Positions 4,018 through 29,940 of a DNA stretch of 33,089 nt are shown piece by piece. The first letter of the stretch is position 1; the number at the start of each line of letters is the position of its first letter. Location: the IMG/VR virus record IMGVR_UViG_3300032093_014000, positions 1 to 33,089 of that record. The stretch is one strand, 5' to 3'. Position numbers and translations under genes: made by a program. The notes beneath the pieces are model-generated. The model saw only the letters and a program-made list of their open reading frames with translations, searched no databases and was not told where the DNA came from. Source of the DNA: a virus.

Positions 4018-5583
4018 TTAGCTATAAACTTGCTGATAAGTATTGATGTTATCGATGATGATAACTCCATAGAATCTGTTGTTAACCATCTTCTTAGCGT
4101 AACGAGTCATGATACCTTTTCTAGGCGTGAAATCGTTAGGGTCATAGATAGTTTGTGTAAGTTGTAACGGAATGTACGGTGCATACACATAACCAGCTTC
4201 TAAGAATGTATCTCCTTTGTGTCCAAGAAGAACGATGTTTGCAGGCATGTAAGGGTCTTTGTAGACTACATATCTGTTTCCAAGGTTACCAATCTTCTCG
4301 ATACCTAAGTTATACTTCTCAGTTTCAGCTTGTGCTGAACCATCTACGTGGAAGTACTCAAGGTCATCAAAGATTGCACCAGCTTCAGCAGAACAGATAA
4401 TCCAGTTAGCACCACCTCTAAGAGTTGCTTTGTGGATTTGAGCTGAAATTTCGTTCACTCTTGTGATAAGAGTTTGGTTCCAGTCCTTCTGAGTTCCGAA
4501 GAAGTTAGCATTGTTTCTTAAACCTGCATAATCCCATCTTGTTTCGAACATAGCACCATTGATAAGGTCTCTGATGATTTCTCTGTCGATTTCAGCAGCA
4601 ACTTCTTCTGAAAGAAGAGCAGTAAGCTCAGCTTCAGCATCAATGCTGTGGTATGCTTCAAGGTCTTGAGCAAGTTCTGGAGTCCAGTGTGCTCTCATTT
4701 TTCTTGTAACAGTGTTTACAGTTACAGAAGAGAATCTGATTGTAAGTTCGCTCATTTCAGATTTAGCTTCAAGGTCATTGAATACTTCATAAGCTGGAAC
4801 AACTGTAAAGTTAGCAACTAAGCTATCATCAAAGTCAGAACCATAAACTCCAGCAGGTCTGATGTCAAGAATAACATTAGCTTGCTGAGAAGCAAATTGG
4901 TCTTCACCCCAAGTCTGCATTTGAGAGTAGAACTTAACGCTATCACCAGCAGTATAAACAACTGTATTGTTATATACAACGTTAGTTACTGCAGAGAATC
5001 TAAGCGAAGAGCTTGATTGCTGCTTGTTAACATCAAAAGTAGCACCTAAAGCAAAAGTATCAGTAACAAGACCAGATACTAATTCAGTAGAACCAGATGT
5101 ATAAGCGATTGGAGTACCATACTTAGTTTCTCCTGTACCAAAAGAAGCATCATAACCTCTGTTATCATAGAATCTTTCGTAAGCAGATGTACTAGCAAAT
5201 GAAGGTCCACCTTGTCCGTTTGCAGTGTTAGCAGGAGCTACTTTGTTAGTAGATACTCTTGCATCCATATAGAACAAAAGTCCTGAAGGAAGAGCAAGTG
5301 GCTGTACTGAAACGATTTCGTTAGCAAGCAATCTTGAGAAGATTCTTCTAACCATAGGGAATGCTACAGTATCAAAACGACCTGCAGAAGAGTCAAGCGT
5401 TACTTCGTTCAACATGTGAGACGCTTGGTTTTCTAATAATTGAGCAATGTTTGATTTTTTAGCTCCGTTAAGACCTTCTAAAAGTCCAGACCTTTCCCAG
5501 TTTCCAACAATCTCTTTTCTTTGTTCTGAAAGAGTTCTTAGAGTTGTCAAACCAACATTACCGCTGTTTAATAATTCACTCAT
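4018..5583 (-). CDS. 23: Major capsid protein, T4 gp23 family
   Basis: 521 aa, matching the T4 gp23 length. N-terminal TLRTLSEQRKEIVGNWERSG, FPMVRRIFSRLLANEIVSVQ and LPSGLLFYMDARV (about 75-110) and the C-terminal GYVYAPYIPL (464-473) are hallmark gp23 signatures. It forms the hexameric shell. Candidate prohead-protease cleavage sites of the (L/I)xE type occur at LLE (49-51) and LNE (58-60), so about 60 residues would be removed on maturation. Codon use is noticeably richer in G/C than in neighbouring genes, fitting high expression. It follows the scaffold gene by 29 nt with no promoter motif between them. Confidence 0.97.
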   Translation of the reverse strand: MSELLNSGNVGLTTLRTLSEQRKEIVGNWERSGLLEGLNGAKKSNIAQLLENQASHMLNEVTLDSSAGRFDTVAFPMVRRIFSRLLANEIVSVQPLALPSGLLFYMDARVSTNKVAPANTANGQGGPSFASTSAYERFYDNRGYDASFGTGETKYGTPIAYTSGSTELVSGLVTDTFALGATFDVNKQQSSSSLRFSAVTNVVYNNTVVYTAGDSVKFYSQMQTWGEDQFASQQANVILDIRPAGVYGSDFDDSLVANFTVVPAYEVFNDLEAKSEMSELTIRFSSVTVNTVTRKMRAHWTPELAQDLEAYHSIDAEAELTALLSEEVAAEIDREIIRDLINGAMFETRWDYAGLRNNANFFGTQKDWNQTLITRVNEISAQIHKATLRGGANWIICSAEAGAIFDDLEYFHVDGSAQAETEKYNLGIEKIGNLGNRYVVYKDPYMPANIVLLGHKGDTFLEAGYVYAPYIPLQLTQTIYDPNDFTPRKGIMTRYAKKMVNNRFYGVIIIDNINTYQQVYS

Positions 5584-5612: not shown

Positions 5613-7040
5613 TTAAGATTTCAAGGTTTCTATACCAGCCAATTGTTTCATTCTTGAAATTTCTCTGCTTTCATATAAAGCTTCAGATTTCGTAGAAGGT
5701 GCAACATTTGGATTTGGTGACTTCAACTTGCTTTTTAGTTGTTCAGTTTTACTATTTGAAAAAGTTTTACTTTCGCTTATAATTTTATTGTAAAGTGTTT
5801 TTGCTTCTTCAACAGTGTTCACTTCATCAAAACTTTCAGCGATTTGTACTTTTTCGTCATTAGTTAAACCTCCCTTTGAGAACAACTTGTTAACATAAGC
5901 TAACTTTGCATTAAAAGTTTGAACCTCGTTAATTTGTTTTCTGAGTACTTTGAATGATTCTTTGTACTCTTTTAGGGATTTTCTTAAACTTTCGTTTTCC
6001 TTAATTAGCTCAGCCACTACAGCCTCCTCTTGAGCCTTATTTTCGTTTACATATATAGGTGAATGGTGTCCGTCATCAGCTCTATGTTCTCTGTTGCCAA
6101 AAGCTCTTTGAACACTGTGACTTGCACCTCTCATCTCATCTAATGGTTCATCTTCAAAATCTTCTTCAGAATTTAAAGTATTTAAAATATCATTTATTTC
6201 ATCATCATCTTCTTCAGAATCATCTTCAAAATTTTCTTCAGAATCATCTAATTCAAAAGAAAACTCATTATCATCATCTTCTCCTACTATATCAATTTCT
6301 AATAGATTATTTTCTGTAACAACAGCTTCATCATCAACTATTTCTATTTCACCTTCAGCTGATGGTGCCTCTTCGCCTGCTTCTGTAGCAGCAGCTGGCT
6401 CAGCATTTATATCTTCAGCTGATTCAGCAGGAGCTTCTAATTTTGAAAGAATAGCATCTAATTTTGCAGATAAATCTTCAATAGCTGAAGCTGTAGGAAC
6501 TTCAACTGTCATACCAGTTGCACCCGCTTCTTCTGCTGGCATTTCTTCTGCTGGCATTTCTTCTGCTGGCGCAGCTTCAGTTGCCTCTGGTGCAGCAGGC
6601 AATTCTTCTTCGAAAAGATTTATTTCAAACAATTGTTCTTCTTCACCTTCCATATCTTCATCATTTTCGTCTTCATCATTTTCGTCTTCGTCGTTTTCAA
6701 CTTCGTCATTTTCATCTTCGTTGTTTTCAACTTCATTTTCATCATCTTCGTTTTCATCTTCAGTAGGAGTAATTGTTAAATCCTCTTCATCAGCATCAAC
6801 TTTAATTGATGTAATTCCATCTTCAACATCAAAAGAAACGTCAGCTCCACCAACGTCTATTGACACTCCTTCATTTAAAGAATTTTTCTCCAAATCAGTT
6901 AAAGCACTTTTAACAGTTTCTTCAATTTTAGAAATAATAGATTCTTCTACAATTTTCTTTGCACTGTTAATGGCTGCATTTTCTATTTCTCTAGCCTCTA
7001 ATATTGCTTTCTCTAGAGATGTTTTTTTAGTTTCAGACAT
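5613..7040 (-). CDS. 22: Prohead core scaffold protein, T4 gp22-like
   Basis: 475 aa between protease and capsid genes, the T4 order 21-22-23. The N-terminus is helical; residues 94-135 are almost entirely Asp/Glu/Asn; 159-171 hold AEEMP repeats; 370-460 form a helical domain with NAKLAYVNKLFSKGGLT and an AESFDEVNTVEEAKTLY segment, the conserved part of scaffold homologues as I recall. It is longer than T4 gp22 (about 270 aa) because of the acidic expansion. It ends with RMKQLAGI, a motif shared with two other proteins here. Scaffold is normally digested by the gp21 protease and expelled. AACTATTTAT lies 37-46 nt upstream (7077-7086). Confidence 0.85.
   Translation of the reverse strand: MSETKKTSLEKAILEAREIENAAINSAKKIVEESIISKIEETVKSALTDLEKNSLNEGVSIDVGGADVSFDVEDGITSIKVDADEEDLTITPTEDENEDDENEVENNEDENDEVENDEDENDEDENDEDMEGEEEQLFEINLFEEELPAAPEATEAAPAEEMPAEEMPAEEAGATGMTVEVPTASAIEDLSAKLDAILSKLEAPAESAEDINAEPAAATEAGEEAPSAEGEIEIVDDEAVVTENNLLEIDIVGEDDDNEFSFELDDSEENFEDDSEEDDDEINDILNTLNSEEDFEDEPLDEMRGASHSVQRAFGNREHRADDGHHSPIYVNENKAQEEAVVAELIKENESLRKSLKEYKESFKVLRKQINEVQTFNAKLAYVNKLFSKGGLTNDEKVQIAESFDEVNTVEEAKTLYNKIISESKTFSNSKTEQLKSKLKSPNPNVAPSTKSEALYESREISRMKQLAGIETLKS
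6528..6570. repeat. 15-bp tandem repeat inside the scaffold gene
   Basis: Three consecutive copies of TTCTTCTGCTGGCAT (plus-strand reading; the last is incomplete) encode the AEEMP repeats of the scaffold protein. In-frame repeat units can change copy number without breaking the gene. Confidence 0.85.
6655..6765. repeat. Degenerate repeat encoding the Asp/Glu/Asn tract
   Basis: Imperfect repetition of TTCGTCTTCATCATT-like units on the plus strand encodes the poly-acidic stretch of the scaffold (residues about 94-135). The repeats are too degenerate for an exact unit. Confidence 0.7.
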
Positions 7041-7114: not shown

Positions 7115-7750
7115 TTATTTTTTCCAAAAACTTTTATCGGATAATTCTTTTAAATTGTTATAATTATTAATTTCGTTTGGCTTTAAAATTTTAGAACTTG
7201 ACTTATCTAATTTAGTTAATCCCCAACTTCTTCCTTCTTTAAATAAATAAGCCCCAGGTGTAGAAGGTGATGAAACAAAGTCAAAAGCTATTAGCTCGAA
7301 ATCTTCTTGAACTACATCAAGACCATTTTTATTTTTTACAGAACCAACACCTCTAGAAGAAATACCTAACATTACTCCACTTTTCAAAAGGCCTTTTAAT
7401 ATTTCACCAGAAGGAGTTTCTAATATTTGAACTTTACCCATAAGAGTATCGCCATCCCACCACATTTCTGTAACCATATGAGAAACATTAGATAAACTTA
7501 CTACAGCAGAATCTGGATGGTCCAATTCGCCAGTGGCTCTTCTTTCTCTTACAGCTTCTTCGTATTTTTTAGCTTCTCTTTTTAATATATCCAAAGGGTA
7601 AACTCTACCATTTCTATTTTCTGTATTAGCCTTTTGAAGAATACCTTTCATGACTATAGGCTGATGCTTTTCTTCAGCTTCTTTTATCAATTTTGAATCA
7701 GCTTGAAAAGCATAAAATTCGGATATTACGTATTTATCTGAATTGCTCAT
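7115..7750 (-). CDS. 21: Prohead maturation protease, T4 gp21 family
   Basis: 211 aa, the usual size for the T4-type prohead protease (herpesvirus-assemblin-like fold, peptidase family U9/S78). Conserved blocks: GRVYPLDIL (48-56), GELDHPD with candidate catalytic His78 (74-80), LGISSRGVGS with candidate nucleophile Ser131 or Ser132 (128-137), and FELIAFDFVSSPSTPGA (151-167). It cleaves scaffold, capsid and internal proteins at (L/I)xE sites inside the prohead. It lies directly upstream of the scaffold gene and has the AACTATTTATA motif 28-38 nt before its start (7778-7788). Confidence 0.95.
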   Translation of the reverse strand: MSNSDKYVISEFYAFQADSKLIKEAEEKHQPIVMKGILQKANTENRNGRVYPLDILKREAKKYEEAVRERRATGELDHPDSAVVSLSNVSHMVTEMWWDGDTLMGKVQILETPSGEILKGLLKSGVMLGISSRGVGSVKNKNGLDVVQEDFELIAFDFVSSPSTPGAYLFKEGRSWGLTKLDKSSSKILKPNEINNYNNLKELSDKSFWKK

Positions 7751-7894: not shown

Positions 7895-8461
7895 ATGGAT
7901 TTATTTAATGATGACACATTAGAGATAACAAATAAAAGAACAGGAAAAGAAATAAAAATTGATGGTAAATATTTTAATAATTGCAATGCAAACTTTAAAA
8001 TAGGTACTACTTTTAATAAAGAAAAGCCAGAAACTATTTTTATAGAAACGAGCTTTTGGATAGATGTAAAAGATAAAGAAAATTATTATGATAAATATTC
8101 CTTTTTTAATTATGATTATGAATTATCTAAAAAACTATCTTATGGTATAAGAAAAATATATAGAAATGATTTAAAAAATTTTCTGGAAAATAATTTTGTA
8201 TTCCCATTTTATTTAGAAAATATATTTGTTTATGATTTTCCTGAAAACATAAATTATAATGACAAAAGAAGTTTTGTATCTATTGAATTAAATATACACA
8301 CTTTAAATTGTATGGATAATTGTGAAAAAGAATATCCATTAAATGATAAAGAAGATAATATATTATTTAATGAAGCAAAAAAAGTATGTGAAATTATTGC
8401 AAATTCAGATTTATTAAAAGGCAATTTAGATTTTACTATACATAAAAGGAAAAAAGACTAA
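7895..8461 (+). CDS. Hypothetical protein, 188 aa
   Basis: No family recognised. A soluble, aromatic-rich protein (many Tyr, Phe, Asn) with CNANF near 29 and two further Cys (NCMDNCEKEYP, about 138-148). It is transcribed against the head genes, between protease gene 21 and the small head-related gene at 8493, with its own host-type promoter and a bidirectional terminator 3' to it. The insertion of an oppositely oriented gene with early-type promoter into the head module suggests a later acquisition (moron-like). Confidence 0.6.
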   Translation: MDLFNDDTLEITNKRTGKEIKIDGKYFNNCNANFKIGTTFNKEKPETIFIETSFWIDVKDKENYYDKYSFFNYDYELSKKLSYGIRKIYRNDLKNFLENNFVFPFYLENIFVYDFPENINYNDKRSFVSIELNIHTLNCMDNCEKEYPLNDKEDNILFNEAKKVCEIIANSDLLKGNLDFTIHKRKKD

Positions 8462-8492: not shown

Positions 8493-8876
8493 TTATCCTT
8501 TTCCTGGATTAGCAGACTTTTCAGTTGTTTCTATATTTGGAAACGCCTTTTTAACAGCTGATTGAACTTTTTTTACTAAACTTTCCAAATCACCATCATA
8601 CCAATCTGGAACTTTTTTATATTGACTTGCTCTTGCTAGAGCATTTCTAGCTTGGTCTTCATCCCCTAAAGGAAAATGGTCTTTATTGTCTTTTACTTTT
8701 GGATTGTTTGCATCAAAAACTGGATTAGGTTTATTTCTAACTTTGGCTTTTGGGTCACTTTTTTTACCTTCATTAAGACCTAAATTTTCCAAAATATATT
8801 CACTTCTTTTTTTATTTTTGAATACTTCAATTTCCTCAGAAATAATTTGCTTTAATTTTGTTTTGTCCAGTTTCAT
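8493..8876 (-). CDS. Probable internal head protein with N-terminal targeting-like peptide
   Basis: 127 aa. The N-terminus has LKQIISEE at residues 8-15, matching in sequence and position LKQIIREE in the protein at 14779; IxE is the T4-type prohead-protease cleavage motif, so this may be a capsid-targeting peptide removed on maturation. The C-terminal half contains KDHFPLGDEDQARNALARAS and a KVPDWYDGDLESLVKKV segment, a small domain seen repeatedly in phage proteins (I believe a DUF6582-like family). It overlaps no gene and follows the 272-aa gene by one base, so they are co-transcribed upstream of protease, scaffold and capsid genes. Confidence 0.65.
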   Translation of the reverse strand: MKLDKTKLKQIISEEIEVFKNKKRSEYILENLGLNEGKKSDPKAKVRNKPNPVFDANNPKVKDNKDHFPLGDEDQARNALARASQYKKVPDWYDGDLESLVKKVQSAVKKAFPNIETTEKSANPGKG

Positions 8877-8877
8877 T

Positions 8878-9696
8878 TTATTGTAATTTTAAAAGATTTT
8901 CATTTAATTCATGACAATTAATTATAATTTCATCAACATTGTTTTTATCTATATTTTCTATAGAATTTAGTTTGTTTTTAAAATTTTCTAATAAATATCC
9001 AGAATCAGCATCATCATCTAATAAGTTTTGAATCATTTCTAAACTCTCATTCTTTAAATCTTTTGCATAGTTAATTTTTATGCTATCAGAAGAAACTAAG
9101 ATTTTAAACAGTTTTTTGTCTGATTCATTTAAATGCTTATATCTTTTATTGAAATTACTTACAGCATGTTCATTAATATATCTCCAAGACAAAAAGTTAG
9201 GCATATCATTTTTTTCTTCTTCAGTTCTTGCATTTTCATTAATTTCTCTTTGTAAATGAGTAAGAACTTTTTCAAATGATTTGTGAGAATTGTTTATGTC
9301 AGTAAATCCTATTTTACTTCTAGATTCTATTAATGTATGAATTGCTTCATATAAATCTTCAAATTCTTTTGTACCTTGAACAAAGTTTTCATCAAGAATC
9401 TCTTTTCTAACTTTTTTGTTGCACTCTAAAAGTTTATGCCAATTTATTTTTTCAGCTAAAGACAAATTTTCATTTATATATCTTTCTGCTAATCTTTCAT
9501 TTTCAAAATGACCTTTTGTTAAATTTTCAAAAATCATATATTGAACTTTTAATAAAGGTTCTTCTTGAATTTTTTTAATAAATTTCTTTAATGAGTTGTT
9601 TTCTTTTATTTCTTTAGATTCACTCATTAATTCTTTAGCGGAAAGTCTATAAACCGTATCTTTTATTGCGCCAAAATTTAAGCTAACTTGTTTCAT
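8878..9696 (-). CDS. Conserved-looking helical protein of the head module
   Basis: 272 aa, almost wholly helical and charged, without membrane segments. Notable stretch IKDTVYRLSAKELMSESKEI at about 11-30 and a compact LAERYINENLSLAEKINW region at about 69-86. I believe similar proteins occur near head genes of other T4-like phages, but I cannot assign a role. Leftward, directly before the 127-aa gene, and 35 nt after the glycosyltransferase stop. A variant motif ATATTTATT lies about 16-24 nt upstream of its start. Confidence 0.6.
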   Translation of the reverse strand: MKQVSLNFGAIKDTVYRLSAKELMSESKEIKENNSLKKFIKKIQEEPLLKVQYMIFENLTKGHFENERLAERYINENLSLAEKINWHKLLECNKKVRKEILDENFVQGTKEFEDLYEAIHTLIESRSKIGFTDINNSHKSFEKVLTHLQREINENARTEEEKNDMPNFLSWRYINEHAVSNFNKRYKHLNESDKKLFKILVSSDSIKINYAKDLKNESLEMIQNLLDDDADSGYLLENFKNKLNSIENIDKNNVDEIIINCHELNENLLKLQ

Positions 9697-9731
9697 TGTA
9701 AATCTTTTTAGAATAAATATGAAAGAAAATT

Positions 9732-10964
9732 TTAATCCACATCAACTAAACTCTTTTCTTTATATAATTCCTTATAGAACCCTACTCTATTTTCTGTAAC
9801 ATTTTCCAGATTATATTTGTCTTTCACAAAATTATATAGATTATTAGAAATTCTTTCAACTTCTTTAGGGTTTTCAATTAAGTACTTAATGTTTTTATAC
9901 CAATCTTTATGATTTCTAGATTTTTCAACTAAAAATCCTGTTTCTCCATCTTCAATTAATTCTTTGTAAACACCATAATCTTGAGCAATTAAAACTTTTT
10001 TTGTTAAACCAGCCTCTATTATTTTAAGTTCTGATTTTACTTTATTAAAAGTATTTTCAACTAAAGGTGCTAAACATACATCACAATATTGATAATGTTT
10101 CCCATACTGCGTAAGAGGAAGTGTCCATCTTCTTACGTAGTTTAAGTTAGATAAATCATCAGAATATTTTTCATTTTTATAAGAATCTAAAAACTTTTTA
10201 TAATTCTCATCAACTATTTTATAATTTGTAGTAAAAATCTTTTCAAATTTATTCCAGACAGTTTCTTCTGGTCTTATTTTTCTAGTTCTTTGTTCACCAG
10301 TTGCTTGATTTATCTCTGTTATATGACCTCTTGTGTCAAAACCACAAAGCACAATTTGGTATTTCCCTTTTAATTCTTCATTTGAATTTAATTTAGACAT
10401 AGAATTTTCTACAAGCTTTAAATCCTCTAAGTGAGAAGAACCTCCAATCCAAGAAATTCTTAATTTTCCATCAATTTTATTAGAATCGTCTGGTTGCCAC
10501 ATTTTGTGATTTGTATCAATAGCATTAGGAATTACTATGACATTTTTGTTATATTTTAAGATTTCTTTTTTAAAAATTTCTGTAGTAGTAGTTACATAGT
10601 CAGCTTTTTTCATTGTACTAACTATTTTTTCTTCTATTTTTTCTTTTAAAGCAACATAATACATTGGATGTTCTTTTGGTGGAGACCAATAATCATCTAT
10701 ATCCATTATCATGGTTACCCCAGCAGCTTTTAAAGTATCAAAGATTTCATCCAACCTTTCTATTGGTCCAAATTGTCTATGGAAATGAATTATATCATAT
10801 TTTTTTAAAGATTCTAAATCATTAAAATTTGGAGACAAATCAATTTTAATATCAAATTCTTCTTTGTATTTTTTTTGCATTTCTTGAGCAGGCCATATTG
10901 AACGAAAATGACCTACGCCAGCCAAATCTGAAGGGTTAAATAATATTTTAATTTTTTTAGACAT
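9732..10964 (-). CDS. GT-B glycosyltransferase (GT4-like) within the head module
   Basis: 410 aa, Rossmann-type GT-B enzyme. N-terminal domain starts KIKILFNPSDLAGVGHFRS; a MDIDDYWSPP segment lies near 92-101; the linker VIVIPNAIDTNH is typical of GT4 enzymes; the C-terminal nucleotide-sugar domain holds CDVCLAPLVENTFNKVKSEL and KIIEAGLTKKVLIAQDYG, the region of the family's catalytic/donor-binding Glu residues. Cytoplasmic, no membrane anchor. Its place inside the leftward structural operon, far from the large rightward glycan cluster, suggests it may glycosylate a virion protein. Donor and acceptor unknown. Confidence 0.85.
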   Translation of the reverse strand: MSKKIKILFNPSDLAGVGHFRSIWPAQEMQKKYKEEFDIKIDLSPNFNDLESLKKYDIIHFHRQFGPIERLDEIFDTLKAAGVTMIMDIDDYWSPPKEHPMYYVALKEKIEEKIVSTMKKADYVTTTTEIFKKEILKYNKNVIVIPNAIDTNHKMWQPDDSNKIDGKLRISWIGGSSHLEDLKLVENSMSKLNSNEELKGKYQIVLCGFDTRGHITEINQATGEQRTRKIRPEETVWNKFEKIFTTNYKIVDENYKKFLDSYKNEKYSDDLSNLNYVRRWTLPLTQYGKHYQYCDVCLAPLVENTFNKVKSELKIIEAGLTKKVLIAQDYGVYKELIEDGETGFLVEKSRNHKDWYKNIKYLIENPKEVERISNNLYNFVKDKYNLENVTENRVGFYKELYKEKSLVDVD

Positions 10965-10974
10965 ATATTTTATT

Positions 10975-11787
10975 TTATAAAGTTATTGTATTATAATAAT
11001 TTCCATTAATTGTTACAGTTGAATATCTTGAATTTATAGCAGTATTTGTTACAATAGAATTATCTGTTCCATTAACAATGTTTGTTGCTGTATATGTTAA
11101 AGGCACATATGGCACATAAACATACCCAGAATCTAAAGTTGAATTTCCTTTGTGAAAATTTAATTTAAATTTAAATGGTTTTTCAATCATTAAGAATCTT
11201 TCATTTTTATTTTCTTTGACTGATTTTAAATTACTTTTTCTACTAAAAATTAAGCTTTTAATTTCTCCAAACATTTTAACCCAAGATTTATTTTTTGAAG
11301 AATATCTATAATATGATTTTTCTTTTAAATCAATATATAAATTCCCGTCCATTTTAATTAATAGACTAAAAATTTGATTAAATTTATCTGTTTTATTTTC
11401 AAAAGCTTTTTCAGAAAAATTATCATTTTTTAAATCATGAATAAATTCATTTAAATCATTTTCAATGAAAGTCTTATCTTTATCACTCCAAGAAATAACT
11501 AAATTATTTTTTGGAATAATTAAAAAATTACTTTCTTCCTCTTTTAAAATTAAATTATCAGTTATTTTAAAGCAACTAAAATATCCACTAAAAGAAAATG
11601 AACCATAAGTACTATTACTATCGAATAAATCGGTATTACCTATAGTAATATTTGTGTTATCAGATATAATACTGTGTACAGAACTTGTTCCACTATAAAC
11701 AATTAAATTATTAGAATTAACAGTTTGAGTTGCTCCAACAGTAACACCTTCGTTAATTGTATTGTAATTCAATTTTTCTTCTGGCAT
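10975..11787 (-). CDS. Capsid-related protein with a gp23-like C-terminal domain
   Basis: 270 aa. Residues about 195-270 align with the last 87 residues of the capsid protein at 4018: RFLMIEKPF against RYVVYKDPY, HKGNSTLDSGYVYVPYVPL against HKGDTFLEAGYVYAPYIPL, and RYSTVTINGNYYNTITL against RYAKKMVNNRFYGVIII. Residues 1-190 bear no clear likeness to gp23: a Ser/Asn/Thr-rich beta-type start and a helical middle with DLKEKSYYRYSSK. It lacks the capsid's N-terminal signatures. It could be a minor capsid, vertex or decoration protein derived from gp23, or a decayed paralogue. It sits in the structural operon, just upstream of the glycosyltransferase. Confidence 0.75.
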   Translation of the reverse strand: MPEEKLNYNTINEGVTVGATQTVNSNNLIVYSGTSSVHSIISDNTNITIGNTDLFDSNSTYGSFSFSGYFSCFKITDNLILKEEESNFLIIPKNNLVISWSDKDKTFIENDLNEFIHDLKNDNFSEKAFENKTDKFNQIFSLLIKMDGNLYIDLKEKSYYRYSSKNKSWVKMFGEIKSLIFSRKSNLKSVKENKNERFLMIEKPFKFKLNFHKGNSTLDSGYVYVPYVPLTYTATNIVNGTDNSIVTNTAINSRYSTVTINGNYYNTITL

Positions 11788-11794
11788 AACTTAA

Positions 11795-12127
11795 TTAATT
11801 ATCAGAATTATTCATATATTTTTCTGCATTTTCTGCAGCCTTTTCAAAATCAGTTTGTTCTTTTGATTCTAAATTGTTAATCATATGAATTAAATCAGAT
11901 TCTTTATATGCTTTGACAAATTCTAGATTAAATTTAGAATTATCAAAATTTCTGTCTACAGAAATAAAACCTCTTCTTTCTTGTGCATCCATTGAAGCTG
12001 TTAATTGTGCTTCTGAAATACAAAATTCATTAGGTTGTAAAATTATTCCTTTTGAGGCCATAGAAGCTGTTTTGCAAGCAACCTTAACCTCTTGATTTGA
12101 TTTGTTTAAAATTTTCCAAGTATTCAT
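11795..12127 (-). CDS. Small hypothetical structural-module protein, 110 aa
   Basis: The N-terminal half looks like a small beta domain (MNTWKILNKSNQEVKVACKT), with LQPNEFCISEAQLTASMDAQ and ERRGFISVDRNFD following; the C-terminal third is helical and acidic. The N-terminal pattern resembles small virion accessory proteins, but I cannot name a family. It is co-oriented with and 7 nt ahead of the gp23-like gene, so probably expressed with the head genes. Confidence 0.55.
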   Translation of the reverse strand: MNTWKILNKSNQEVKVACKTASMASKGIILQPNEFCISEAQLTASMDAQERRGFISVDRNFDNSKFNLEFVKAYKESDLIHMINNLESKEQTDFEKAAENAEKYMNNSDN

Positions 12128-12202
12128 AATTGTTTTTTAAATATGTTCGAATATACCTTTATTTTTAAATAAAGTAAATAATAAATAAAAAAGAAAAAAA
12201 AA

Positions 12203-12691
12203 TTAAGATTTTGGGTTTAAATTTGACAATTTAATTGAATTCATTATATTGTCAGTAACTTCTGATACAAACATTTTTAGGTCATCAGAAGAGTGTTTTG
12301 AGTTTAAATTAAACCTATTTGTTACACCTCTATAATTAACTGAGGAAACAGTGTTGGAATCATTTGAGAATTGAACAGATAATGTTATTTCAAAATTTTC
12401 ATCTATTTCTTTTTCTCCAATATACCCAGAAATAGATAAACTAATAAAAAGTGAATTTGCATTCATTTTAGTTGAACTTTTCAATAATTTTAAAGTTAAA
12501 GAATTGTCTTTTTCAACAATATTATCTAATTCACTTAATATTTTAGAACCCAAATCAAGAAGATAGTTTTCAGAATACCAACTCAAAGTACCATCATCAC
12601 TTCTACCAGTATTAGCAGAAAGCTTAACTTCCTCTTCAGAAATTAAGCCTGCCAATTTTTTGATTCTATTTTTATAAGATTCTTTAATCAT
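12203..12691 (-). CDS. Putative internal head protein with RIKKLAG motif
   Basis: 162 aa. The N-terminus carries RIKKLAGLISEEE at residues 9-21; the same R(I/M)K-x-LAG block ends the scaffold protein and recurs in the protein at 14779. ISE fits the (L/I)xE cleavage rule of the prohead protease. The remainder is a soluble alternating alpha/beta domain (SLFISLSISGYIGEKEIDE, about 75-93). Its start codon overlaps the stop of the upstream 315-aa gene by one base, so translation is probably coupled. No named family. Confidence 0.6.
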   Translation of the reverse strand: MIKESYKNRIKKLAGLISEEEVKLSANTGRSDDGTLSWYSENYLLDLGSKILSELDNIVEKDNSLTLKLLKSSTKMNANSLFISLSISGYIGEKEIDENFEITLSVQFSNDSNTVSSVNYRGVTNRFNLNSKHSSDDLKMFVSEVTDNIMNSIKLSNLNPKS

Positions 12692-13638
12692 TATTTTTTT
12701 TGTCCTAAAACAATTTGACCACTCAAATAATTTTTAATTATTTCTTTTAATTTAGAATTTAATAATTCTTCAAAACTTTCTTCATCTACATTTTGTACTG
12801 ATGCACCTGTTTCTAAATTTTGATATTCTCCTGTACTATTTTGCACATCAAGCCCCATATCATTAGACATTGGTCTAATCACATCTTTTACTGGCGCTAT
12901 AGAGTCAATCATATTACCATTAGAATTATTTTCAGAACTTTCATAATCATCTGTTGAAGTTGGACCTTCTAATTCTGAATTTTCTTTTTCATTTATAAAA
13001 TTAGAAATCCCTTCAAATGGGTCAAATTCTATTCTGCCTATTTTTTCAAAATTTACAATAAATACTTCAGCATCTCTTTTTCCATCTTTAAGCCACAAGT
13101 CTTTCATGCTTGTTTTGTTTTCTGGGTCTTCAACTAAGTTCATGTAAGTATTTGAAAGTTTTTCTGCACCAACACTTAAATCGTTTTCATTGAAAACAAA
13201 TAATTTTTCACAACCTAGGTTTTCAAGTTTTTCTGGAACTTCTGGCTTATATTGTAATTCTTCTTCTTTGCTTCTAAGTTCTTCTTCTTTTCTTCTAAGT
13301 TCTTCTTCTTTTTCAAGTAAAGCTCTTTCTTTAGCTTCTAATTCTCCTTCTTTTTTATACATCTCTTGAAATTCTTCATTTGATTCAACAGATGTAGTTA
13401 TAGATTCAGGCTTTTCTCCAGGCATATCTTTAGGTACTTCTTGTTTAGAAATATCAACATTTACAATTTCTCCACCACCACTATTTACATTTGTTGGCAA
13501 AGAGTTCTTGACTTCAGTTTTTATTCTTTCTGAAATGTTTTTTAATATTTCATTTGTTATATCGTCTTTAGAAACACCTTTTTCTAAAAACTTATTCTTT
13601 ATCATTTCTTCCAGTTGTGATGTTGTAATTTTTTCCAT
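12691..13638 (-). CDS. Coiled-coil structural-module protein
   Basis: 315 aa. N-terminal helices (about 1-45); a strong coiled coil at about 97-130 built from EEELR(R/S)KEEEL repeats; then a small domain with LGCEKLFVFNENDLSVGAEK and VFIVNFEKIGRIEFDPFEG (about 140-218); a Ser/Asn/Glu-rich linker; and a C-terminal helical tail. The coiled coil is encoded by 21-bp imperfect tandem repeats (13259-13320). Role unknown; position and composition suggest a scaffold or internal virion component. First gene of its leftward block, with an ATATTTATT variant of the promoter-like motif about 17-25 nt upstream of the start. Confidence 0.6.
   Translation of the reverse strand: MEKITTSQLEEMIKNKFLEKGVSKDDITNEILKNISERIKTEVKNSLPTNVNSGGGEIVNVDISKQEVPKDMPGEKPESITTSVESNEEFQEMYKKEGELEAKERALLEKEEELRRKEEELRSKEEELQYKPEVPEKLENLGCEKLFVFNENDLSVGAEKLSNTYMNLVEDPENKTSMKDLWLKDGKRDAEVFIVNFEKIGRIEFDPFEGISNFINEKENSELEGPTSTDDYESSENNSNGNMIDSIAPVKDVIRPMSNDMGLDVQNSTGEYQNLETGASVQNVDEESFEELLNSKLKEIIKNYLSGQIVLGQKK
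13259..13320. repeat. 21-bp imperfect tandem repeat encoding a coiled coil
   Basis: About three units containing CTAAGTTCTTCTTCTTT (plus-strand reading) encode the heptad-like EEELRxK repeats of the coiled-coil protein. Confidence 0.65.
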
Positions 13639-13740: not shown

Positions 13741-14451
13741 ATGACAAACAAAAAAACAATTAAAAAAGGAAAAGGAAACGACACAAAACAATTTTTAAAA
13801 ACAGTAATAGGAGATATTTATTTTAAAGAAAAAAATCAAAAACAAAAAGAATTTTATGACCTGATTGAAAACAAAGAAATAATCATATGTTCAGGTCCAG
13901 CAGGAGTAGGAAAATCTTATCTAACAGCGTTAAAAGCTCTACAATTATTATCATCACCAAATAATGAATTTTATAAAATAGTAATAACAACACCAGCAGT
14001 AGAAGCTGATGAAAAGTTAGGATTTTTGCCTGGTGATATTTTGGAAAAAATGGCGCCATACACTTATTCAACACTATATTTATTTGAAAAAATTATAGGA
14101 AAACAAGCAGTTCATAATTTAATGGAATCTGAAATTATACAAATTATGCCTTTAGCATATATGAGAGGTATAAATGTTGACCATTCAATATTAATAGCAG
14201 AAGAGTTTCAAAACTCTACCAAAAGACAAATGAAAACAATGTTAACAAGAATTGGATGGAAAAGTAAATTTATAATTTCTGGAGATTTGGAACAGTCAGA
14301 CAGGTATAGAGACACATCTGAAACTGGACTTTATGATGCTTTAAAAAGACTTTCAAATATGACAGAAGTTGGAATTTTTAAGTTTGAAGAAACAGATGTG
14401 GTAAGAAATCCAGTAATTGCTAAAATATTAGAATCTTATAAAAATGAATAA
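13741..14451 (+). CDS. phoH: PhoH-family P-loop ATPase
   Basis: 236 aa. Walker A GPAGVGKS at 52-59; VITTPAVEADEKLGFLPGD (81-99) matches the PhoH signature; Walker B-like ILIAEEFQN at 150-158, where family members usually have DEaQN, so Asp is replaced by Glu; the sensor segment FIISGDLEQSD follows. PhoH proteins are common auxiliary ATPases/putative RNA helicases in marine T4-like phages; their job in infection is unsettled. Rightward, diverging from the coiled-coil gene, with its own AACTATTTATA motif. Confidence 0.93.
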   Translation: MTNKKTIKKGKGNDTKQFLKTVIGDIYFKEKNQKQKEFYDLIENKEIIICSGPAGVGKSYLTALKALQLLSSPNNEFYKIVITTPAVEADEKLGFLPGDILEKMAPYTYSTLYLFEKIIGKQAVHNLMESEIIQIMPLAYMRGINVDHSILIAEEFQNSTKRQMKTMLTRIGWKSKFIISGDLEQSDRYRDTSETGLYDALKRLSNMTEVGIFKFEETDVVRNPVIAKILESYKNE

Positions 14452-16068: not shown

Positions 16069-16926
16069 ATGAACAATAAAATTAAAGTAATAGTTCCATT
16101 TTATAATCCTGGAAAATTTTTGGACAGATGTGTAAATTCTCTTTTGACTCAAGATTATGAAAATTACGAAATCCTTTTTATTGATGACAGTTCTACAGAT
16201 GGTTCATTTAGCAAAATACCAGCAGTAAAATATAAAGGAGATGATAATGGTGATTTATTAAAAGATGAAAACGGAGAACCTATAGTTGAATATAAACATC
16301 CTCTATTAGAAAAAACGAAATGTCAAAATATTTTAGCTTGGAGGTCAAGCGAAAGAATGAGTGCACTCCCAAATTTGCATAATGGTATAATGAGATTTGC
16401 TATAGACCCAGATGATATTGTTGTAATAGTAGATGGAGATGACTGGTTATTTAAAAAGGATGTATTATCATACATAAACGATTTCTACAATAAAAATCCA
16501 GAATGTTGGATGATGTATGGCAGTTCAAAATGGACTAATGGCATGAAATGTTGTGCGAGAGAATATACAGAAGATGATTTTAAAGATTTAAGAAAATCTC
16601 AATTTAAAGTTTCTCACATAAGAACTTTTAGGGCAGGTCTTTATGCTAAAATTGCAGAGCAGGATGAAAATTATTCATGTATGAAAGATTCTAATGGCAA
16701 TTGGTATCAAATGACATATGATGTTGCAATGTTTATTCCAATGCTTGAAATGGCTGGGAAAGAGCATGTTTTTTATAATGAAACTCCACTTTATGTTTAT
16801 AATAGAGAAAATCCTATTTCTGACGATAAAGTAAATCAGCAACTTCAGTGGAGTATACATTCAGAAATAAACAAAAAGAAGCCTTTTCAAAAAATTGAAA
16901 CTTATAAAACAAATAAAAATGATTAA
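16069..16926 (+). CDS. GT2 glycosyltransferase
   Basis: 285 aa, GT-A fold. KVIVPFYNPGKFLDRCVNSL opens the nucleotide-binding domain; FIDDSSTDGS (DDSSTD, 39-44) is the GT2 donor-base motif; VDGDDW (121-126) is the metal-binding DxD. In the C-terminal part, AREYTEDDFKD and MTYDVAMFIPMLEMAG occupy the usual acceptor-site region. No membrane anchor, so a soluble enzyme using an activated sugar. First gene of the rightward cluster, overlapping the next by 8 nt. Confidence 0.92.
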   Translation: MNNKIKVIVPFYNPGKFLDRCVNSLLTQDYENYEILFIDDSSTDGSFSKIPAVKYKGDDNGDLLKDENGEPIVEYKHPLLEKTKCQNILAWRSSERMSALPNLHNGIMRFAIDPDDIVVIVDGDDWLFKKDVLSYINDFYNKNPECWMMYGSSKWTNGMKCCAREYTEDDFKDLRKSQFKVSHIRTFRAGLYAKIAEQDENYSCMKDSNGNWYQMTYDVAMFIPMLEMAGKEHVFYNETPLYVYNRENPISDDKVNQQLQWSIHSEINKKKPFQKIETYKTNKND

Positions 16927-17719
16927 TGGAATAGTATTTTCAAAAGATAGAGCAGCACAATTAAAACTATTTCTTGATAGTGTTGAAAAAAATGCTAATG
17001 GAGTTTTTTCTTTAAATGTTTTATATACTTATTCAAATGATGAATTTGAAAAAGGGTATAATAAATTGATGGAGCAATTCCCAGAAGTAAAATGGATTAA
17101 AGAAATAGATTTTAGAGAACAAACTTTAGCTATTTTAGAAAATTCAATATATAATTATACATCATTCTTTACTGATGATGACATAATTTATGGAAGAGTT
17201 GATGAAAATGAAATGATTTCAAAATTAGAGACAGATAATGACGCTTTTTGTTTTTCTATGAGATTAGGTTTAAATACAAACAAATGTTACACTATGAGAT
17301 GTGACAATGTTATAATGCCTGATTATGAGGATGATAAATTTATAAAATGGAACTGGTCAGTTCATTATATGGATTTTGGCTATCCACTGTCAGTTGATGG
17401 ACATATTTTTAAAACAAAAGAAATTCATAAACTTTCAAAAAAAGTTATGTTTCAAAATCCAAATACTTTTGAGGCGGCATTACAAATGTTTGGAAACTAT
17501 CCTAAAAAAACAATGTGGTCTTACAAACAAAGTAAATTAGTAAATTCTCCTTCTAATGTTGTTCAAAGTGTATTTCCAAACAGAGAAGGTGAATTTCATG
17601 GGATTTCAGCACAAGAATTGAATGATAATTTTTTGTCTGGGAGAGAGATTAAGTTAAATAAAATAGATTTTTCTAATATTGTTGGATGTCATCAAGAATT
17701 AGAATTACCATTTGAATAA
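16919..17719 (+). CDS. Glycosyltransferase-like protein (GT-A type)
   Basis: 266 aa from the ATG at 16919 (MINGIVFSKDRAAQL); an in-frame start 24 nt further upstream lies deeper in the preceding gene and is less likely. SFFTDDDIIY (TDDD at 85-88) resembles a DxD metal-binding site. DFGYPLSVDGHIFKTKEI and an aromatic-rich centre fit a sugar-processing enzyme, as seen in capsule loci, though the family is less certain than for its neighbours. Start overlaps the previous stop (ATGATTAA), implying coupled translation. Confidence 0.72.
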   Translation: MINGIVFSKDRAAQLKLFLDSVEKNANGVFSLNVLYTYSNDEFEKGYNKLMEQFPEVKWIKEIDFREQTLAILENSIYNYTSFFTDDDIIYGRVDENEMISKLETDNDAFCFSMRLGLNTNKCYTMRCDNVIMPDYEDDKFIKWNWSVHYMDFGYPLSVDGHIFKTKEIHKLSKKVMFQNPNTFEAALQMFGNYPKKTMWSYKQSKLVNSPSNVVQSVFPNREGEFHGISAQELNDNFLSGREIKLNKIDFSNIVGCHQELELPFE

Positions 17720-17723
17720 AGTT

Positions 17724-18038
17724 ATGGCAAAACCAGTAATAGTATTTTATATATACGTTGGAAATTTAGATGAAAGAGATGTAGCCATTTATGTTGAGAC
17801 AGTAAAGGAATCAACAATATATCTTGAAAATGACTATCATAGAATTGTAATTCCAACAAGAGAAGGAGAAACTAAAGTAGAAATGTTATCTCCAAACATT
17901 ATTACATTAAACGACAAAGTAATACAGAAATTAAAACAATCAAGTAAAAAATTAATTTTTGAAACTGAACAGCTTTTAGATAGAATGCCTTTTTTGTCGA
18001 AACAAATATTGTTAATAGAAAAAAATTATAGTATATGA
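17724..18038 (+). CDS. Small conserved-looking protein of the glycan cluster
   Basis: 104 aa from ATG at 17724; a TTG codon 12 nt upstream is in frame but overlaps the previous gene. The N-terminus KPVIVFYIYVGNLDERDVAI begins with a beta strand, and VIPTREGETKVEMLSPNII (about 49-67) is the other distinct part. I have seen similar small proteins in T4-like phages but know no function. Ends in an ATGA overlap with the GT6 gene, so its expression is tied to that enzyme. Confidence 0.65.
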   Translation: MAKPVIVFYIYVGNLDERDVAIYVETVKESTIYLENDYHRIVIPTREGETKVEMLSPNIITLNDKVIQKLKQSSKKLIFETEQLLDRMPFLSKQILLIEKNYSI

Positions 18039-18718
18039 AAATAGGCTTATTAGTCATTGCAACAGGTAAATACACTCAATTTATACCTCCATTATATAAA
18101 TCTGTAAAAAAACATTTTATGAAAAATCATGAAGTTAAAATGTTTGTTTTTACAGATGGTAATGTGCCAGAAAATGATGACATTATTAGAATTGAACAAG
18201 AACATTTGGGATGGCCTTACGCCACATTAAAACGTTATCATGTTTTTGATAAAAATAAAGAATTGCTATCTAACATGGATTATCTTTTTTATTGTGATGC
18301 TGATATGAGATTTGTTGAAGATGTAAACGAAGAAATACTCCCAGATACAGAAACTGAACTTGTTGGCACAGAACACCCAGGATTTTTTGGAGGAAGAAGA
18401 GGAAGTTATGAAACTAACAAAAGTTCAACAGCATATGTTTCAGAAGAAGAAGGTGAATGTTATTATGCTGGTGGATTTAATGGAGGAACTTCAGAAGCTT
18501 TTCTTGAAATGTCAAAAACAATAAAGGAAAGAGTAGATAAGGATTTAGAAAATGGAATTATTGCTGTTTGGCATGATGAAAGTCAAATGAATAGATATTT
18601 TATTGATAATCCACCAAAAAAGCTTAATCCAAGTTATTGTTATCCAGAATCTTGGCAAATACCATTTGAAAAGAAGCTTTTAGCTTTAGACAAAAATCAT
18701 TCAGAAATAAGAGGTTAA
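18035..18718 (+). CDS. Family 6 glycosyltransferase (ABO/alpha-1,3-Gal-transferase type)
   Basis: 227 aa, a catalytic domain without transmembrane anchor. All GT6 landmarks are visible: FYCDADMRF with DxD at 88-90, HPGFF (114-118), YYAGGFNGG (143-151), WHDESQMNRYF (179-189) and NPSYCYPE (198-205). GT6 enzymes add Gal or GalNAc alpha-1,3 to a galactoside; ABO enzymes need a fucosylated acceptor. As I recall, most cellular bacterial GT6 proteins have NxN and are metal-independent, whereas this one keeps DxD, like the vertebrate enzymes and a cyanophage homologue. Stop and next start overlap (TAATG) with a GT10-type gene. Confidence 0.92.
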   Translation: MKIGLLVIATGKYTQFIPPLYKSVKKHFMKNHEVKMFVFTDGNVPENDDIIRIEQEHLGWPYATLKRYHVFDKNKELLSNMDYLFYCDADMRFVEDVNEEILPDTETELVGTEHPGFFGGRRGSYETNKSSTAYVSEEEGECYYAGGFNGGTSEAFLEMSKTIKERVDKDLENGIIAVWHDESQMNRYFIDNPPKKLNPSYCYPESWQIPFEKKLLALDKNHSEIRG

Positions 18719-19548
18719 TGAAAGCAAATGTAAATTCTAATTTTGGCATGTCCTTGAACTATGATTTTGATAGTTCAATGCCAATAGATATTTGGGTTGA
18801 TAATTTTCAAAATTTAGACAATCCAACGATTGAACAGTTTGAAGCTTCAGCAGGAAGAAGGCTTTTAAAAAAATTCTTTGTTCAAATTGAGCCAAACGAA
18901 ATTATGGGTTTGAATAAACGCATTATAGACAATTGGAATCGTTTTGATTATGTGCTTACATATGAACAAGAAGTTTTAGATGCTATACCAAACGGAGTAC
19001 TTTTTGAATATGGAACAAAATGGATTCATTTAGATGAATATGATTTGAATAAGCCAAAAGAGTTTTCTGTATCTACGGTTTGTGGTCACAAGACAATTAC
19101 GGAGAATCATAAAATAAGACAAAAGTTGTGGTATAAACAAAATAAAATAAGCATACCGAAAAAATTCTTTTTAAGTAGATTAGGCGGTGTTGAAAATTTT
19201 GGAAATAACCCTATACTAGGAGAGCGAAAAGAACCTCTATTTGATAGTATGTTTCATATATGTATAGAAAACGTATCAAAGCAGAATTTCTTTACGGAAA
19301 AATTGATAGATTGTTTACTGTGCAAAACCATTCCTATTTATATAGGCTGTCCTAATATAGTAGAATATTTTGATGTAAATGGGATTATTATTGTAAATTC
19401 TTTTAATGAGGCAATTGAAAAGTGCAACGAACTAACTCCTGAGTTTTATGAATCCAAAAAAGATGTCATAGAGATAAATAGAAGATTGGCTATGAATTGG
19501 GTTGATTACAATGAAAGGCTTATTAATAAAATAAAAACTTTAATATGA
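18718..19548 (+). CDS. GT10-type fucosyltransferase
   Basis: 276 aa. The C-terminal segment FHICIENVSKQNFFTEKLID and CLLCKTIPIYIGCPNI (179-214) is the alpha-1,3/4-fucosyltransferase motif (E-N ... TEKL ... P-I-Y-x-G). The N-terminal half includes FFVQIEPNEIMGLNKRII (53-70) and VLTYEQEVL (79-87), as in short bacterial FutA-like enzymes. Length is smaller than Helicobacter enzymes, lacking their C-terminal heptad repeats. Expected donor is GDP-L-fucose, which the gmd and fcl products encoded downstream would supply. Linkage and acceptor cannot be read from sequence. Confidence 0.88.
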   Translation: MKANVNSNFGMSLNYDFDSSMPIDIWVDNFQNLDNPTIEQFEASAGRRLLKKFFVQIEPNEIMGLNKRIIDNWNRFDYVLTYEQEVLDAIPNGVLFEYGTKWIHLDEYDLNKPKEFSVSTVCGHKTITENHKIRQKLWYKQNKISIPKKFFLSRLGGVENFGNNPILGERKEPLFDSMFHICIENVSKQNFFTEKLIDCLLCKTIPIYIGCPNIVEYFDVNGIIIVNSFNEAIEKCNELTPEFYESKKDVIEINRRLAMNWVDYNERLINKIKTLI

Positions 19549-20081
19549 AATTACATTTAGGATGCGGCTTTAAAAAGTTGGATGGTTTTGTAAATGTTGA
19601 TATAAGACCAGAAACAGAATGTGACATTGTTGATAATGTTGCAACATTAAAAAACTTTAAAGATGAATCTGCAGAAATGATATATGCTTGTCATGTTCTT
19701 GAACATTTTAATAGAAAAACATATCTAGATGTTTTAAAAAGGTGGAATGAAATTTTAAAAAGCGGTGGAATATTGAGAATATCAGTTCCTGATTTATATA
19801 AAGTTTCGGAGTTACATTACACAAAAAGATACACTCTTAAACAATTGATGGGATTTTTATATGGAGGTCAAAATTATAATGAAAACTTTCATTATGTTGG
19901 TTTTGATTTTAATATGTTAAAAGAAGATTTAGAAGGTTTAGGATTTATAGACGTTCATATTTGGGATTGGAAAACGGTTGAACATGGTTCTATAGATGAT
20001 TTTAGTCAAGCATATCTTCCACATATGGAAAAAGAAAAAGGAGTTTTAATGAGTTTAAATATTCAAGCTAAAAAAATATGA
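19545..20081 (+). CDS. SAM-dependent methyltransferase (class I)
   Basis: 178 aa. Motif I LHLGCGFKKLDGFVNVD (3-19) and the acidic loop, then ACHVLEHF (post-II, about 48-55) and LKSGGILRISVPDLYK (about 71-86) make a typical type-11-like methyltransferase. Short, with no accessory domain. Probably methylates a sugar or a precursor in the glycan. Overlaps both neighbours by ATGA, a sign of coupled translation. Confidence 0.85.
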   Translation: MKLHLGCGFKKLDGFVNVDIRPETECDIVDNVATLKNFKDESAEMIYACHVLEHFNRKTYLDVLKRWNEILKSGGILRISVPDLYKVSELHYTKRYTLKQLMGFLYGGQNYNENFHYVGFDFNMLKEDLEGLGFIDVHIWDWKTVEHGSIDDFSQAYLPHMEKEKGVLMSLNIQAKKI

Positions 20082-20668
20082 AAATTTATACAATAGGAGA
20101 TTCACATTCTGATTTTTCGTTTAGAAATATTATAGAAGATAGACACAATATTGCGCCTATGACTATGCATAAAGTTAGACGTGATAAAATTAATTTTTAT
20201 GATATTTTTAAAAGTAGAAATGTTGATATATCATATAACTCATTTGTTATTTTTTGTTTTGGAGAAATAGATATTAGGTGTCATATTTTTAATCAAATAC
20301 AATTAAATGATTTAACAGAAGATGAAATAATAAATAGTTTAATAATTGATTATGTTAATCATATTAAAAGTCAAAAAATATTTTTTGAAAAAATTGGAAT
20401 TTTAAGCATAACCCCACCTTCAAAAAAGAATAGAAATATAGAAAATATAAATTTTCCATTTCTTGGTTTAGACGAAGATAGGTCTAGATATACTATTAAG
20501 GCTAATTCTATATTAAAAGAATTATGTAAAGAAAATGATATAAATTTTATAGATATATATCAATATTATGCTGATGAAAATGGAATGTTAATAAATCATA
20601 TGTCTGACGGAAGTGTTCATATTGGAAATACAGTATATGTTAAAAACGAATTAAAAAAACATATTTAA
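20078..20668 (+). CDS. SGNH/GDSL-type hydrolase
   Basis: 196 aa. GDSHS at 7-11 gives the block I nucleophile Ser9; FGEIDIR (61-67) is in the position of block III (GxND in most members, GEID here); DGSVH (177-181) gives the Asp/His pair of block V. Family members act as O-acetylesterases or acetyltransferases on carbohydrates, so removal or transfer of acetyl groups on the glycan is likely. No signal peptide, so cytoplasmic. Confidence 0.78.
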   Translation: MKIYTIGDSHSDFSFRNIIEDRHNIAPMTMHKVRRDKINFYDIFKSRNVDISYNSFVIFCFGEIDIRCHIFNQIQLNDLTEDEIINSLIIDYVNHIKSQKIFFEKIGILSITPPSKKNRNIENINFPFLGLDEDRSRYTIKANSILKELCKENDINFIDIYQYYADENGMLINHMSDGSVHIGNTVYVKNELKKHI

Positions 20669-20670
20669 TC

Positions 20671-22002
20671 ATGGTATCAATATTATTAGCAGTTTATAAT
20701 GGTGAAAAATATTTAAGACGTTCTATAGAATCGGTTTTAAATCAAACATACAAAGATTTTGAGTTATTAATAGGTTTTAATGGAACTATTGACAATAGCA
20801 AAGAAATTGTTAAAGAATTTGACGATGAAAGAATTAGAATTTTTGATTATGGTTTAGATGCTGGGAAGTCTAAAACTTTAAATAAATTATTAAAAGAAGC
20901 TAAAGGAGAATGGTTGGCAATACAAGATGATGATGATGTTTGGTTGCCAAAAAAATTAGAAATACAAATAGAACTTGCGAACACTGGATTATATGATGTA
21001 ATAGGTTCTAGAATATTTTACTGTGATGAATTGGAAAAAATAACAGGTCAGCCTAATCTTTCTTTAGAACATGAAGAAATATTAAGACTTTCAATGTCTG
21101 GTGTAAATCAAGTGGCAAATACTTCAGCAATATTTAAGAAAGAAATAGCAGAAGAGGTTAATGGATGGGATGAGTCTATTGTTGGAATAGAAGATTATGA
21201 TTTTTGGTTGAAACTTATGAAAAAAAGTTGTAAATTTATAAATGACAAAAAACAACTAGTTTTGCATAGAATACATAATAAAAGTAATTTTAATACAAAA
21301 AAATATGATATAAATTTTTTATTAAAAAAACACGACTTGTGTAAATATAAAATTGGTATAGTAATTTTTCATAAAAATGCTAAAAAAATATATAATGACA
21401 GATGGTTATTGAAATTTTTTGATTCAATTGTAAGTCAAACATATAAAGACTATTTTATTTACGAATTAAATTATGGAGATGATAATTATTCTTTTCTTGG
21501 AGATTACCATTTTGAAAATGGTAAATTTTACAAAATTGAAATGGATAATCATGCTCAAGCAATGAATTATATTATAGAAGAAGCATTTAAGGATGGGTGT
21601 GATTTTGTATTTAATACTAATGTAGATGATTATTATCAAGAAAACAGAATAGAAAGACAATTTGAAAAATTAAAAGAAGGTTATGATATAGTTTCATCAA
21701 ACTTTTCTCATATAAAAGAAAATAATTATGAAGATGAAAGTGTTAAGGATTTTTTAATGACAAAAAAAGGAGAAATAATAGAAAATCTAAGAGTTGGTCA
21801 TAATGTTATAGCTCATCCATGTGTTGCGTATAGTAAAAACTTTTGGGATAATAATAAATATAATGAGGAAGATATACCAATGGAAGATTTAAAACTTTGG
21901 CAAGATTCAATTGAAAAAGGTTTTAAATTTTATATTTGTGAAGACATTCTTCTTTATTATAGAATACATGAAAATCAAGTAACTAAACTAATAAAAAATT
22001 AA
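20671..22002 (+). CDS. Two-domain GT2 glycosyltransferase
   Basis: 443 aa with two GT-A domains in tandem. Domain 1 (about 1-215): SILLAVYNGEKYLRRSIESV, FNGTIDNS, QDDDDVW (85-91), and EDYDFWLKLMKK at the acceptor site. Domain 2 (about 225-443): YKIGIVIFHKNA, a degenerate donor loop, NVDDYY as metal motif, and EDLKLWQDSIEKGFKFY. Domain 2 lacks some first-motif residues and may be weak or have other specificity. Such tandem enzymes can add two sugars in succession. No membrane segment. Confidence 0.87.
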   Translation: MVSILLAVYNGEKYLRRSIESVLNQTYKDFELLIGFNGTIDNSKEIVKEFDDERIRIFDYGLDAGKSKTLNKLLKEAKGEWLAIQDDDDVWLPKKLEIQIELANTGLYDVIGSRIFYCDELEKITGQPNLSLEHEEILRLSMSGVNQVANTSAIFKKEIAEEVNGWDESIVGIEDYDFWLKLMKKSCKFINDKKQLVLHRIHNKSNFNTKKYDINFLLKKHDLCKYKIGIVIFHKNAKKIYNDRWLLKFFDSIVSQTYKDYFIYELNYGDDNYSFLGDYHFENGKFYKIEMDNHAQAMNYIIEEAFKDGCDFVFNTNVDDYYQENRIERQFEKLKEGYDIVSSNFSHIKENNYEDESVKDFLMTKKGEIIENLRVGHNVIAHPCVAYSKNFWDNNKYNEEDIPMEDLKLWQDSIEKGFKFYICEDILLYYRIHENQVTKLIKN

Positions 22003-22004
22003 AA

Positions 22005-23457: not shown

Positions 23458-23460
23458 AAA

Positions 23461-24393: not shown

Positions 24394-24394
24394 T

Positions 24395-26623: not shown

Positions 26624-26630
26624 TATTAAT

Positions 26631-27919: not shown

Positions 27920-27921
27920 TT

Positions 27922-28773: not shown

Positions 28774-28774
28774 T

Positions 28775-29887: not shown

Positions 29888-29916
29888 TAAAATATTTACT
29901 TTTTTATAATAAAAGT

Positions 29917-29924
29917 TATTTTTG
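29917..29924 (+). promoter_or_regulatory. Putative -7 box upstream of gmd
   Basis: TATTTTTG fits TAnnTTTG exactly, 17 nt before the gmd start in the largest gap of the glycan cluster (53 nt). This is the same distance as the TATGTTTG before the first glycan gene. Could give gmd-fcl separate expression; the sequence is low-complexity, so chance is possible. Confidence 0.35.
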
Positions 29925-29940
29925 GTTTAAAACATTTTAT

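Follow-up and report, generated by a model that had tools for sequence, protein, structure and literature searches.

The major capsid protein (MCP) of phage T4, gp23, and its vertex paralogue gp24 (PF07068) share the HK97 fold, in which the last strand is part of the P-domain sheet. Encapsulin cargo targeting peptides are C-terminal and bind an HK97-fold shell protein; they are short and do not originate from the shell protein itself. The accessory protein Ccm of SaPIbov5 does derive from a capsid protein and is a whole, satellite-encoded HK97-fold protein with a delta domain (PMC8569155). T4 capsid targeting sequences are N-terminal, comprise about ten residues, do not derive from the MCP tail and may let T4-like phages carry varied proteins into their heads (PMC9026906). 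In phage D3, the P-domain associated region of the scaffold contributes an extra strand to the MCP's P-domain sheet and belongs to the MCP's own scaffold domain, with no separate chimera (PMC12749128).

Here, we focus on a gene in a 33-kb virus record from a T4-like phage (33,089 nucleotides; hereafter the window), in which the MCP, a scaffold-like protein and the prohead protease are all encoded on the minus strand (Table 1). The gene product, which we call the chimera, carries a tail that shares ancestry with residues 433-510 of the MCP encoded in the window and hence with the C-terminal segment of the gp23/gp24 family. Unlike gp23 and gp24, it holds about 78 of about 520 MCP residues, and the remainder of its 270 residues is unrelated. 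Like Ccm it is an accessory protein of capsid-protein origin, whereas it is phage-encoded and retains the tail only (PMC8569155). The logic proposed below resembles that of the T4 internal proteins, where rapidly changing accessory proteins enter the head by means of a small module (PMC9026906), and the proposed mechanism resembles the strand that D3 joins to the P-domain sheet, homology to the D3 region not being shown (PMC12749128). Compared by description, the encapsulin peptides share with the proposed tail the position of a C-terminal binder.

Table 1. Features of the window that bear on the chimera (coordinates in the window).
Feature	Position	Strand	Basis
MCP, gp23 type, source family of the tail	4018-5583	-	Pfam Gp23, E 2.4e-75; model matches T4 gp23, Z 13.9
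MCP segment equivalent to the chimera tail, MCP residues 433-510	4054-4287	-	BLASTP
Predicted propeptide of the MCP (residues 1-60), with an (L/I)-N-E site at its end	5404-5583	-	E60 invariant
Acidic scaffold-like protein between protease and MCP	5613-7040	-	Position and conservation; no family match
Prohead protease, gp21 type	7115-7750	-	Peptidase_S77, E 1.1e-32
Glycosyltransferase, downstream neighbour bordering the slot	9732-10964	-	Pfam Glycos_transf_1; synteny
Chimeric gene, 270 aa, ATG start	10975-11787	-	ORF; accessory gene in a variable slot
Profile core of the tail, residues 212-270	10978-11154	-	79-MCP profile
MCP-derived C-terminal tail, residues 193-270	10978-11211	-	BLASTP, 79-MCP profile, shuffles
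N-terminal domain, residues 1-192, fast-evolving, without known family	11212-11787	-	Negative hhalign, Pfam, PHROGs and PDB searches
Upstream neighbour bordering the slot, 110 aa, conserved	11795-12127	-	Homologues in 8 relatives

The homology of the tail was observed with several sequence comparisons. BLASTP aligns it with the window's own MCP at an E-value of 1e-9 (81 columns); the identity is 32-36%, the lower value being that over the BLASTP columns. A profile built from 79 MCPs matches the core of the tail with an E-value of 3.4e-10 among 6705 ORFs, and the score of 38.6 bits compares with 10.8 bits for the top of 20,000 shuffles. The Pfam model Gp23 (PF07068) matches residues 213-260 only (E 1.4e-4) and at 21.9 bits stays below its curated cut-off of 24.4 bits. 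A preliminary description made from the sequence had equated the last 76 residues with the last 87 of gp23 and proposed an HMM comparison; the profile match bears out the homology, while the extent needs correction, as the match stops at MCP residue 510 and the final 11 MCP residues are missing from the chimera. The same description regarded the other 190 or so residues as non-capsid, in agreement with hhalign, which finds no similarity between residues 1-192 and the MCP profile (probability 0.1%). Among profiles of separate MCP segments, the C-terminal one is the sole match; the N-arm, E-loop, spine helix and A-domain of the HK97 fold were not detected at the sequence level with these profiles or with hhalign of residues 1-192. 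Hence, the chimera is neither a full-length MCP paralogue of the gp24 type nor a whole HK97 fold with a delta domain as in Ccm, since the tail alone matches in the MCP and segment profiles. A second weak match, of chimera residues 13-66 to MCP residues 175-230, was not significant (0.077) and was dropped. For the N-terminal domain, which is 30-34% identical to its homologues, searches of Pfam, PHROGs and the PDB gave no credible family. An AF2 model of the chimera from an 11-row alignment reached a pLDDT of 36.7 and was left unused for fold searches.

The chimera gene starts 7 bases past the stop of the 110-aa gene and ends 10 bases ahead of the glycosyltransferase gene. Its placement within the head operon, as given in the preliminary description, holds in part: the gene belongs to a minus-strand run of seven genes (8493-13638) that adjoins the head genes, with a gene on the opposite strand (7895-8461) parting this run from the protease, scaffold and MCP genes. 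Beyond the run, the window encodes a PhoH-like ATPase (13741-14451, plus strand), whose counterparts in named phages are annotated PhoH, and a long series of glycosyltransferase, methyltransferase and sugar-nucleotide genes (16069-31939, plus strand); on a reading of the sequence, the genes at 29941-31014 and 30995-31939 resemble GDP-mannose dehydratase and GDP-fucose synthase.

A search for homologues in related phages, likewise proposed at the outset, found them in the same slot in contigs L090 (31% identical) and L102/L103 (33% identical; near-identical to each other). Each member of this slot family matches the MCP tail profile independently, with E-values of 5.6e-10 for the window, 5e-4 for L090 and 8.7e-10 for L102/L103. 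The same gene order with homologues in these separate contigs rules out an assembly artefact. The chimera is the least conserved gene common to these phages, as their other shared genes are 41-89% identical. In L091/L092, the MCP is 89% and the glycosyltransferase 77% identical to that of the window; there, the chimera gene is missing from the slot and the bordering genes lie 3 bases apart, and it was found nowhere else in the 232-kb contig of L091. In distant relatives, the slot is empty or holds an unrelated small ORF. Thus, the chimeric architecture is kept in one slot in three diverged phages and is absent from a close relative, and because that relative does without the gene, an essential vertex role of the chimera is unlikely; decoration and size control, likewise suggested in the preliminary description, stay candidate roles. 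The homologues in IMG/VR were reached by using the neighbouring genes as bait, whereas a scan with the chimera alone found a single near-identical contig; tblastn with the chimera, its tail and the L090 homologue gave no match in 50,697 phage records.

We also sought further MCP pieces with the MCP profile through the records of relatives. L122 and L128 encode proteins of 117 and 116 aa, 64% identical to each other, which lie immediately downstream of the portal gene and end in an MCP tail. Together with a 209-aa ORF of L120, they have a common domain with the motifs LFEKCRK and GLKYWYDKNGK, followed by the tail; the L120 ORF additionally contains an MCP spine-helix stretch, so that the foreign domain sits between the spine-helix and C-tail pieces. 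In LR756511.1 (595 kb), a 100-aa ORF combines paired Cys motifs with an MCP tail. The opposite end of the MCP occurs in a 72-aa protein encoded directly after a glycosyltransferase gene (L118:11591-11806, plus strand; also L121:3208-3423), which corresponds to the MCP propeptide (60 residues, 45% identical), aligns an LTE with the (L/I)-N-E at MCP position 60 and closes with a 12-residue Cys-rich end. Another region is seen in the 372-kb contig of L015, where a dCMP deaminase is fused in frame to an A-domain piece (about MCP residues 347-457) far from the full MCP (L119:5950-6825, minus strand). A 170-aa ORF of LR756508.1 has about 45 residues matching the MCP. No short MCP-piece proteins were found in 29 records, many of them fragments, of a group with 42-50% identical MCPs, and the L122/L120 alignment had no match when scanned against bacterial genome contigs. 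On sequence grounds, a true MCP tail on an unrelated domain is a recurring phenomenon in this phage group. The early claim that part of the HK97-like MCP is reused in a small protein encoded next to the head genes thus comes out stronger than first stated, because the reuse recurs in relatives.

As a control, Pfam models were applied alike to the same 23 records. Partial Gp23 proteins occur in seven of these, five above the curated cut-off (two of which are the same phage) and two below. Portal_T4 gave no partial protein above the cut-off in 13 records and one weak 86-aa match in LR756511.1, and Terminase_6N gave one possible second copy, a 307-aa frame of LR756508.1, in 12 records. This suggests that fragment copies are specific to the MCP, with small numbers and models of unequal sensitivity. 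Large in-frame insertions, possibly inteins, were observed in portal and glycosyltransferase frames (L120:6449-10981, minus strand; L130:18223-20142, minus strand; L108:11372-13780, plus strand), including a 1511-aa portal frame and a glycosyltransferase split around residue 311. In L018 (9989-11648, plus strand), the MCP extends over two frames (230 and 348 aa), reflecting a frameshift or an assembly error.

A maximum-likelihood tree of 67 tail columns groups the LR756511.1 tail with its own MCP (support 100/97) and places the window family and the L120/L122/L128 family near the MCPs of the window's clade, in two weakly supported groups. Given the strongly supported branches, MCP tails were captured at least twice, on different partner domains. 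The window and L120/L122/L128 families share S-R-(Y/F) and Y-Y-type changes relative to T-R-Y-A-K-K and F-Y-G in the MCPs, which hints at a single origin of these two families. Capture of the window's tail was not recent, as it is only about 36% identical to its own MCP; a recent duplication is ruled out by this value, the MCPs of close relatives being 69-89% identical. At about 30% overall identity, the homologues keep open frames and the residues G-Y-x-(Y/F)-x-P-x-(V/I)-P and (S/T)-R-(Y/F), which speaks for function. For L122/L128, the one pair close enough for dN/dS, the N-terminal domain gives 0.39 and the tail 0.90 (NG86) or 0.30 (YN00). Within the window family (L090, L102 and the window), tail and N-terminal domain diverge about equally.

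Our preferred reading, held tentatively, is that the chimera may be an accessory head-associated protein in which a portable docking tail, acquired long ago from an MCP of the gp23 type, was joined to a fast-evolving N-terminal domain. The tail would dock on MCP subunits or assembly intermediates, for example as an extra strand for the P-domain sheet, so that the N-terminal domain would be carried along to the capsid or into it. The model of the window's MCP, which matches T4 gp23 (7vrt) and HK97 (1ohg, Z 8.9), has its last predicted strand at residues 505-511, within the segment equivalent to the chimera tail, residues 461-499 being modelled without confidence. Docking is favoured by the same tail on other partners (L120, L122, L128 and LR756511.1), by the position of the genes next to head genes (the gp21-22-23 cluster in the window, the portal in L122/L128) and by the propeptide, the MCP's other end, standing alone in L118. 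Against it, a docking tail leaves the A-domain and spine-helix pieces of other relatives unexplained, the dN/dS of the tail depends on the method and the tail shows no stronger conservation than the N-terminal domain. E60 is identical in 79 of 79 MCPs, and cleavage of the MCP after its propeptide is presumed from knowledge of T4 gp21. In T4-type internal head proteins, module and cargo are parted by an (L/I)-x-E prohead protease site. The prohead protease might, on weak indications, also cut the chimera between domain and tail: MIE-202, LLE-178 and LLE-202 stand just ahead of the tail in the three homologues of the slot family, (L/M)-x-E triplets being common in these proteins. A wider proposal, which we regard as doubtful, is that T4-like phages have several times, in independent events, put ends of their own MCP (the C-tail and, once, the propeptide) to new use as portable modules that target unrelated, fast-evolving proteins to the capsid.

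The same observations can be read as by-products of illegitimate recombination, with MCP fragments repeatedly copied into other genes and kept as poorly constrained tails of little function. The variety of MCP regions in relatives, namely the N-end and C-end, the spine helix and the A-domain piece joined to a dCMP deaminase, the NG86 value of the one tail pair and the coming and going of the chimera gene between relatives fit this explanation, yet intact frames and key tail residues persist among the diverged homologues, the C-tail at protein C-termini is far commoner than other MCP pieces, and portal and terminase are almost without such fragments; we consider it unlikely. Descent from a full second MCP like gp24, by replacement of the A-domain and loss of the N-terminal parts to leave a mini P-domain, would account for the L120 protein with its spine-helix and C-tail pieces around a foreign domain. 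With no MCP trace in the window's N-terminal domain and with the LR756511.1 tail clearly coming from its own MCP onto a Cys-motif domain, such a strongly reduced paralogue is decidedly improbable.

Two further explanations concern conflict or partners other than the shell. By analogy with SaPIbov5 Ccm, a capsid-protein homologue that redirects helper capsids (PMC8569155), the tail could join capsomers as a defective subunit piece and alter capsid size or poison the assembly of competing related phages. Patchy occurrence and fast change would suit such a role, but Ccm has the complete HK97 fold, unlike the chimera, and the gene resides in the phage's own genome adjoining its own head genes; a modifier of capsid assembly is quite improbable. 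The retained residues are the most conserved of the MCP tail, as would be expected if the chimera mimicked the MCP towards a folding chaperone or an MCP-sensing host defence protein. T4 gp23 requires a dedicated co-chaperonin and some defences sense the MCP, but no link of the chimera to a chaperone or to defence was found, and we hold mimicry to be very unlikely.

Whole capsid-protein paralogues such as gp24 and Ccm are known, whereas the literature searched for capsid-protein fragments, the coverage of which was partial, yielded no short tail-only proteins that recur with different partner domains. If these proteins merely reflect the shedding of fragments, the MCP gene would be unusually apt to scatter pieces through these genomes. 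Should the tail bind the shell, phages would have a simple route to gain head proteins, and the tail could serve as a natural tag with which capsids are loaded or decorated.
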